The notes below the pieces were generated by a model. The model was not told the origin of the DNA. It saw nothing but the letters and a program-made list of their open reading frames with translations, and ran no database searches. 64,000 nucleotides of DNA from Olsenella sp. An285 (GTDB lineage: Bacteria > Actinomycetota > Coriobacteriia > Coriobacteriales > Atopobiaceae), in NCBI RefSeq assembly GCF_002159625.1, contig NZ_NFIZ01000002.1, positions 186,001 to 250,000 of the forward strand. Direction: 5' to 3'. This document shows, in pieces, positions 6,820 to 55,929 of this stretch. Numbering within the stretch: position 1 is the first letter of the stretch; every line of letters begins with the position of its first letter. The translations under genes were made by a program, and so were the position numbers.

Positions 6820-7463
6820 ATGAGGGCGAGGCGCCTAGCAGCGAGAAGAACGGGGGGCACGTGACCGGGAGGACGCACGTCATTGTGGGCGCGGCGGCGG
6901 GAGTCGCCGCGGCGTCGGCGCTCGGAGGACCTGTCGCGGTGACGGAGCTCGCAGCGGCCGCGGCGGGCGGGGCGCTCGGAGGAACGCTTCCCGACCTCGA
7001 CGTTCGCGACAGCGCGCATCCGCTGCGTGACCGGCTCGCGCGCGTGGCGGCCGTGGCGCTGCTTGTCCTTGCCATCTGCTTGGACGCGACTGCGGGCTGG
7101 CCGCTCGCACGGCGCGCCGCGCAGGCCGGGCTCGAGTCCATCGCGCTCGGGGCTGTGGCCTTTGCCGCGCTCTGCTGCGCGGCGCGGCTCTCAGCCCACC
7201 GGTCCTTCTCGCACTCGCTTCTGGCGCTCGTGGGATTTGCCGCCGCGACCCGCCTAGCCTGCCCTCCGCTCGCCCCGGCGCTCGCGGCCGGCCTTGCCTC
7301 CCACCTTGTCCTCGACCTCTTCAACCACCGGCCGATTCGGCTGCTCTGGCCCGTTCGGCACGGCTTTTGCCTGGGGCTCTGCAAGACCGACGGCATCGTC
7401 GACGCGTGCTGCACCGCGGCGGGGCTCGTCGTGGTGGCTGGCGCTGCCCTTCTCGCGCTCTGA
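6816..7463 (+). CDS. YdjM/DUF457-type membrane-bound metal-dependent hydrolase
   Basis: A membrane protein of about 215 residues resembling the YdjM family of LexA-regulated, presumed zinc-dependent hydrolases. Support comes from TGRTHVIVGAAAG near the start, the metal-site-like GTLPDLD with Asp pairs, SAHRSFSHSLLAL (His-rich, between helices) and HLVLDLFNH near the C-terminus. At least four hydrophobic segments are present. The start is uncertain: ATG 6816 lies in the palindromic element and has no clear ribosome site, while GTG 6861 gives the more typical MTGRTHV start after GGGGGG. Substrate unknown. The gene between two inverted repeats may have been transposed or simply bracketed by repeat insertions. 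Confidence 0.72.
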   Translation: MNEGEAPSSEKNGGHVTGRTHVIVGAAAGVAAASALGGPVAVTELAAAAAGGALGGTLPDLDVRDSAHPLRDRLARVAAVALLVLAICLDATAGWPLARRAAQAGLESIALGAVAFAALCCAARLSAHRSFSHSLLALVGFAAATRLACPPLAPALAAGLASHLVLDLFNHRPIRLLWPVRHGFCLGLCKTDGIVDACCTAAGLVVVAGAALLAL

Positions 7464-55686: not shown

Positions 55687-55711
55687 TGACAGAGGGACAG
55701 TCACTTTGTCA
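55687..55711. repeat. 25-bp GGGACAGTCAC palindrome (type II)
   Basis: TGACAGAGGGAC, A, GTCACTTTGTCA with two mismatches, then TGTTATGC. Same orientation and right flank as at 20441 and 31870. Confidence 0.85.
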
Positions 55712-55720
55712 TGTTATGCA

Positions 55721-55756
55721 GGGCCGCAGGTCTCGTCTGGGACTTGCGGCCCTTTT
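55721..55756 (+). terminator. Rho-independent terminator of the nan operon
   Basis: GGGCCGCAGGTC (55721-55732) pairs with GACTTGCGGCCC (55741-55752), one G-T pair, 8-nt loop, followed by TTTT (55753-55756). Confidence 0.9.
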
Positions 55757-55759
55757 GAC

Positions 55760-55929
55760 GTGCGGGAACTCGACGTTCTTCTCGCCCAGACTGTCGCGTT
55801 GCCGCACCTCACCGCCTGGCGTGCGGAAATTCGACGGAATGTGCCCCTGGACTGTCGCGAATTTGCACCGATTCCACTGGCGTGCGGAATCTCGACGTTT
55901 CCGGACGTCAGACTGTCGCAGTTTCGCAC
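55760..55929. repeat. Three hairpin units at an exact 61-bp period
   Basis: Units at 55760-55807, 55821-55868 and 55882-55929. Each begins GTGCGG, has TCGACG near base 11 and GACTGTCGC about 30 bases in, and ends GCAC, so it folds on itself. 13-bp linkers separate them, the second and third unit following CTGGC. The spacing of both CGTGCGG and ACTGTCGC is 61 bp twice. Not a CRISPR: the repeat is a 48-nt hairpin with only a 13-nt linker. Confidence 0.88.

Follow-up and report, generated by a model that had tools for sequence, protein, structure and literature searches.

The array downstream of the nan genes

The 64,000-nucleotide stretch of DNA that was analysed (the window) contains an array of short palindromic repeats, which is preceded by nan-like genes encoding DHDPS/NanA, a ROK kinase and NanE and followed by genes encoding a Gfo/Idh/MocA oxidoreductase and a DeoR-type regulator. 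An earlier note, made from the sequence alone, had described three 48-nt hairpins with paired ends and an exact 61-bp period located after a nan operon, and the coordinates and neighboring genes bear this out (Table 1). The array consists of three 48-nt imperfect palindromes and 13-nt linkers; GTGCGG and GACTGTCGC are unchanged in all three units, and their starts are exactly 61 bp apart.

Table 1. Positions in the window of the array, its parts and the adjoining features.
Feature	Position	Strand	Remarks
Repeat ttgacagagggacagtcactttgtca	55690-55733		second dispersed repeat
Intrinsic-terminator-like hairpin AGGGCCGCAGGTC...GACTTGCGGCCCTTTT	55720-55757	+	between nanE and the array; outside the repeat
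Unit 1	55760-55807	+	48 nt
Unit 1 left half GTGCGGGAACTCGAC	55760-55774
Unit 1 loop	55775-55792		18 nt
Uptake-sequence-like 10-mer GTTCTTCTCG (+) / CGAGAAGAAC (-)	55775-55784	-	start of loop 1; abuts the CGAC core
Unit 1 right half GTCGCGTTGCCGCAC	55793-55807
Linker 1	55808-55820	+	13 nt
Unit 2	55821-55868	+	48 nt; most degenerate copy
Unit 2 left half GTGCGGAAATTCGAC	55821-55835
Unit 2 right half GTCGCGAATTTGCAC	55854-55868
Linker 2	55869-55881	+	13 nt
Unit 3	55882-55929	+	48 nt
Unit 3 left half GTGCGGAATCTCGAC	55882-55896
Unit 3 right half GTCGCAGTTTCGCAC	55915-55929
10-bp-phased direct repeats TGCGTAAAA/TGCGCAGAA	55936-56068		upstream of the Gfo/Idh oxidoreductase gene; kept in relatives

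When scored in the window with a model of the unit, units 2 and 3 have E-values of 2e-7 and 1.5e-10, and unit 1, which belonged to the training set of the model, has an E-value of 9e-17. The E-value of unit 1, together with the recurrence of the repeat at about 24 genomic sites, indicates more than a chance arrangement. When the units are folded as RNA single strands, only unit 1 clearly beats its dinucleotide shuffles (z -3.95), and the values for units 2 and 3 are unremarkable (z -0.86 and -1.46, respectively). The 265-nt region has a folding z of -4.6, a value that takes in the conserved terminator hairpin upstream.

This intrinsic-terminator-like hairpin is also kept in the closest relative (G018). 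Because it lies directly upstream of the array, the array is beyond the likely end of the nan transcript.

Two other features adjoin the array. Copies resembling ttgacagagggacagtcactttgtca occur as inverted pairs on both sides of the Y1_Tnp gene at G000:C29:43222, and therefore this repeat is probably the REP of that RAYT. The direct repeats on the other side of the array are probably operators for a sugar regulator, e.g., the nearby DeoR-type protein.

A dispersed family in the same genome

A strict DNA pattern finds only the three window copies in the genome from which the window comes (G000) and no copy in 30 other genomes of the genus; variation in the five middle bases and in the loop kept the remaining copies from matching. 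A pattern of this strict type gave 46 scattered, chance-like matches among 84,980 species, and a match in a viral contig was dismissed as a lone unit-like chance match with no repeat adjoining it. A DNA search with the intergenic region produced many partial matches clustered elsewhere in the G000 genome, and a sequence-only profile found at least 124 matches, counted on both strands, in about 24 arrays in this 2.41-Mb genome, a lower bound since 150 of the 2,436 candidates were scored. Thus, a search for the unit elsewhere, which the earlier note had proposed, revealed many copies, and the window array is one of about 24 scattered arrays and not an isolated locus.

The fetched copies are all built alike. 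The left half (GTGCGG-N5-CGAC) and the right half (GTCG-N5-CCGCAC) are 15 nt each, the center between them is 18 nt and the linker is 13 nt. Each 15-bp half is thus a 6-bp outer block, five variable bases and a CGAC or GGAC core. Sixty units were recovered by pattern from the G000 genome, which has 60 or more in all. The loci in hand comprise 61 distinct arrays of at least two units, with 158 units of exact 15+18+15(+13) geometry, and 91 of the 97 linkers in these arrays are exactly 13 nt. The sequence CTCAACGGTTGAG is commonly found near the fetched copies.

The arrays also have a preferred context. Both neighboring genes were called for 20 of the G000 arrays, and 12 of these are in tandem gaps, eight in convergent gaps and none in divergent gaps, against a background of 478 tandem, 150 convergent and 99 divergent gaps obtained with the same crude gene caller. 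Many of the arrays begin 3-60 bp past a stop codon. This location just past stop codons and away from divergent gaps would suit a function in RNA, in which the units are hairpins of the 3' UTR that stop 3' exonucleases or modulate readthrough and are conserved for their fold.

Three arrays are situated at contig ends (C2:1-107, C18:4-186 and C15:17627-17735); the draft assembly therefore seems to be broken at these places, and the copy numbers are probably underestimates. One unit (L220:1439-1504, which is C23:179639-179704 of G000) lies in frame within a 611-aa ORF (L220:638-2473), where it sits between an N-terminal region and XdhC domains and apparently fuses two genes. Relatives have matches at the same place.

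Distribution and covariation between species

The family was surveyed in sets of 31 and 140 genomes. The sequence-only profile has matches at an E-value of 1e-5 or better in 10 genomes, all from one genus, among the 35 genera of the family Atopobiaceae that were searched. A second model, which takes structure into account and was built for the most part on a single unit from each species, detects the repeat in 26 of the 31 genomes of the genus, and outside the genus it has only weak matches, one or two each in three genomes of the 35 genera. Therefore, the repeat is limited to one genus, weak stragglers aside. No Rfam 15 family matches above its gathering score.

The geometry is the same in the other species, and the arms differ. 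The GTGCGG/CCGCAC arms of G000 are replaced by GGGCGG/CCGCCC in G008, G009 and G025, by TAGGAG/CTCCTA in G001, G005, G010 and G020 and by arms resembling CGGGGC/GCCCCG in G014 and G029. Three further types occur in single genomes: GCACCG/CGGTGC (G006), GGGCCGC/GCGGCCC (G028) and TGGACG/CGTCCA (G013). Hence the outer blocks are species-specific and yet mutually complementary, with a geometry that is fixed throughout the genus.

This complementarity can be measured. At sites picked near profile matches by the inner core GAC-N18-GTC alone, a choice that is free of bias towards palindromes, 7.2 of the 11 outer positions are paired versus 3.6 in controls. In an alignment of 24 units, most of which come from separate species, the proportion of paired cells is 82%, compared with 67% for shuffles and 37-47% for slid structures, and 16 of the 21 pairs have changes on both sides. 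The covariation score of this alignment is 0.439 versus 0.174 for shuffled alignments, and none of 500 shuffles scored as high; the value leans upward since for several of the units the copy with the strongest palindrome at the locus was chosen, and the shuffles ignore relatedness among the units. The earlier note had let its proposal of a selected fold depend on other copies of the unit and on covariation in relatives. Both are present, and it is the outer and core pairs of the stem that covary strongly between species. Such covariation is also what a hairpin that functions as RNA would be expected to display, and two further observations point in the same direction: unit 1 folds well, and in G011 and G021 hairpins of 15+18+15 geometry occupy the terminator position.

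One stem or two motifs

Within a species the picture is different. Arm positions 7-11 and some of the loop positions are often unpaired in the 24-unit alignment. The variable positions of the GTGCGG type do pair more often than in random arrays (305 versus 277, p 0.002); however, when right halves are swapped among units of the same array the score is not lowered (p 0.79). In 59 units of the TAGGAG type there is modest covariation at the polymorphic fifth base (39 pairs versus 30 expected, p 0.015), and the four bases in the middle pair at the level of shuffles (86 versus 87.6). When all arrays are pooled, the number of paired bases among the middle five is 2.11 within a unit, 2.30 for halves that face each other across the linker and 1.58 when random arrays are compared.

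From the half swaps and these pairing values, the halves look like independent directional motifs that are arranged in inverted pairs with two dyad axes, and not like one conserved RNA stem. The half-swapping and middle-base results lend no support to a long RNA stem that is under selection in each unit. The suggestion in the earlier note that the fold is under selection is thus partly supported: the outer and core pairs covary across species, but the within-species data do not show selection on the fold of the individual unit, as would be expected for a discrete small RNA (p 0.79; 2.11 versus 2.30).

These results also bear on the role in RNA. The middle stem pairs little above chance within a species, and this pairing is not specific to the unit. 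In addition, near-identical outer ends at about 24 unrelated loci exceed what a fold needs, the window array comes after a terminator-like hairpin and two of its three units have ordinary folding energies. A conserved 3'-UTR hairpin is thus a fairly unlikely explanation for the family.

Halves that behave as independent bipartite sites (6+N5+4) would also be expected if the units bind a chromosomal protein, such as a nucleoid protein, a gyrase-like enzyme or a segregation factor. Each half would then be a bipartite binding site, and the ends would change with the protein. The rigid spacing, the two dyad axes in each period and the concerted, species-specific ends at many loci are consistent with such a DNA site. 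The distribution of the arrays among orthologous sites weighs the other way.

Orthologous sites

The gap between nanE and the oxidoreductase gene has arrays or units in six species, and they differ in arms or in unit number. There are three units in G000, four in G017, three of the GGAC type in G011, two each in G008 and G001, and one in G021 together with a repeat of another type. Only a truncated remnant is present in G018, and the gap has no array in G005, G022, G007, G014 or G029. In species that lack the array, another type of intergenic repeat (GGGTTACGCG...AACTCGGGATT, ...GAACGCGCAGCCTG...) fills the nanE gap; for example, it is located at 1074-1330 of L125 in G018 (contig C105), and it is also present in G007, G014 and G029.

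Sister genomes have array positions in common, with the number of units changed. Queries made of joined flanks indicate that some whole arrays are missing from close relatives: L106 is missing in G018, L170a in G021, and L168 in both G016 and G021. At L171 the alignment displays replaced intergenic DNA and no clean junction, and no target-site duplication was recognised in the empty-site comparisons. Deletion could also explain the absence of whole arrays in close relatives.

The arrays occupy only some intergenic regions and can be missing altogether in a close relative, and this patchiness argues against an essential, genome-wide architectural role. A binding site for a chromosomal protein is accordingly, in our judgement, an unlikely reading of the family.

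Transposase genes

REP and REPIN repeats are usually moved by a transposase. Y1_Tnp genes of RAYT size are numerous in the genus, and 20 of these loci were fetched: all five of G000, all of those in G017, G011, G016 and G021, and one of the three in G005. The unit is absent at all 20. Six of the loci (L196, L198, L199, L203, L204 and L206) were examined for repeats, and each has its own palindrome in inverted pairs, so that several REP/TIR families coexist in one genome. Furthermore, G001, which is 99% complete, has about 36 units of the TAGGAG type and no Y1_Tnp match. Membership in a REP-RAYT system was rejected on these two grounds, and the putative factor that acts on the 61-bp family is none of the RAYT-type transposases tested.

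One could still suppose that the units are REPINs proper with a RAYT mobilizer, of which the adjacent copy was lost or was missed in draft genomes. The architecture is almost that of published REPINs (PMC3116915), Y1/RAYT-type genes with palindromes of their own abound in the genus, and CGTC-tagged REPs that lack a transposase have been reported (PMC3733652). However, with the unit absent at every Y1_Tnp locus found in G000, G017, G011, G016 and G021, and with G001 as it is, we regard this as highly improbable.

A word resembling an uptake sequence

The loop of unit 1 begins with a 10-mer, CGAGAAGAAC/GTTCTTCTCG, that is the commonest in the window, with 19 sites (e.g., at 6842, 10046, 33363, 54918, 55775 and 59121). 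It lies inside 11 of 60 G000 units, in mirrored fixed registers beside the GAC core, and its density is 3 per kb in arrays versus 0.55 per kb outside. The 12-mer GGCGAGAAGAAC occurs 258 times in the genome, about equally on both strands, versus two times for a reversed control. It is frequent in six other genomes sampled from the genus (134-358), it occurs 78-180 and 33-69 times in two further genera, and it is mostly rare elsewhere in the family Atopobiaceae. In number, length and strand balance the word is like the DNA uptake sequences of Neisseriaceae (PMC3630211), and by this resemblance only we call it an uptake-sequence-like or Chi-like word. The literature searched holds no report of an uptake-sequence-like word in this lineage.

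How the family may spread

The family has a fixed geometry, about 24 sites in one genome, a location 3' of genes, complementary species-specific ends, a variable number of units, and presence or absence at orthologous sites. These features match the published behavior of REP and REPIN sequences (PMC3116915, PMC3733652). The family is real and REP/REPIN-like, and it has no earlier name in the sources searched. The explanation that we favor takes the window array as a member of this family of non-coding, palindromic intergenic repeats, which has a REPIN-like anatomy and extends through the genus, and adds spread by a trans-acting DNA-processing factor; we give this explanation about even odds.

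The putative factor, most likely a single-strand-processing transposase or a similar nuclease, would recognise each half and act on the hairpin that forms when the region is single-stranded. It would then copy or move units, which would keep the ends uniform among the arrays of a species, and slippage or recombination might subsequently add or remove 61-bp units locally. The movement would be slow, because array positions are often common to sister species. We infer mobility of the units from comparative genomics.

A more far-reaching version is distinctly unlikely in our estimation. Here a diverging DNA-recognition factor would act on single-stranded hairpins at dozens of sites and homogenise them, perhaps coupled to DNA uptake via the GTTCTTCTCG word in some of the loops. 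If true, such a system would be a RAYT-independent class of replicating bacterial palindromes.

Comparison with known systems

The array resembles a CRISPR in its regular period and in its alternation of constant and variable parts. However, it has one to five units at each of about 24 scattered places, both conserved blocks are inside the palindrome, and the variable part of 18 nt also lies inside the palindrome and is sometimes common to several units. A CRISPR array, in which the repeats are invariant and the spacers between them are unique and of one length, was ruled out for this reason, and the earlier note was right that this is neither a CRISPR nor a plain tandem duplication. Integron attC sites and parS-like sites were dropped on sequence grounds by comparison with their consensus sequences.

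REPINs (PMC3116915) are closer. Like them, the 61-bp family has a pair of conserved end motifs, each about 15-16 bp long, that are inverted relative to each other and stand a fixed distance apart, a variable hairpin-forming interior and many copies dispersed in intergenic space, and phased tandem arrays occur as well. The 61-bp family differs in that none of the RAYT genes examined is associated with it, the end motif is bipartite (6+N5+4), the ends vary between species of one genus while the geometry is fixed, and most copies are in short 61-bp arrays.

The nearest named precedent is the CGTC-tagged REPs, including the neisserial dRS3, which were reported to have no dedicated transposase (Di Nocera et al. 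2013, PMC3733652). They are likewise palindromic and intergenic, located 3' of genes in tandem or convergent gaps, with inverted dimers and no dedicated transposase, and the core of the 61-bp family even holds the CGTC word (cCGTCg). However, GACG is the pairing partner of this CGTC, each arm measures 15 bp and the centers are 18 and 13 nt. The CGTC-REPs are defined by an 8-9 bp stem starting with AT, a 4-5 nt loop, an unpaired CGTC tag and a CCA tail (PMC3733652); the unit sequence departs from this definition, and so identity with them was rejected. None of five Coriobacteriia names occurs in the text of PMC3733652.

The family is a clean case of REP-like palindromes without a known mobilizer, because one geometry is present in 26 of 31 genomes, compensated end switches occur at the same orthologous gap, each genome has many arrays and relatives have empty sites. 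Such palindromes are an old puzzle, and what recognises their ends and how scattered copies stay alike are questions that this family opens to direct tests by comparative genomics and pull-down.
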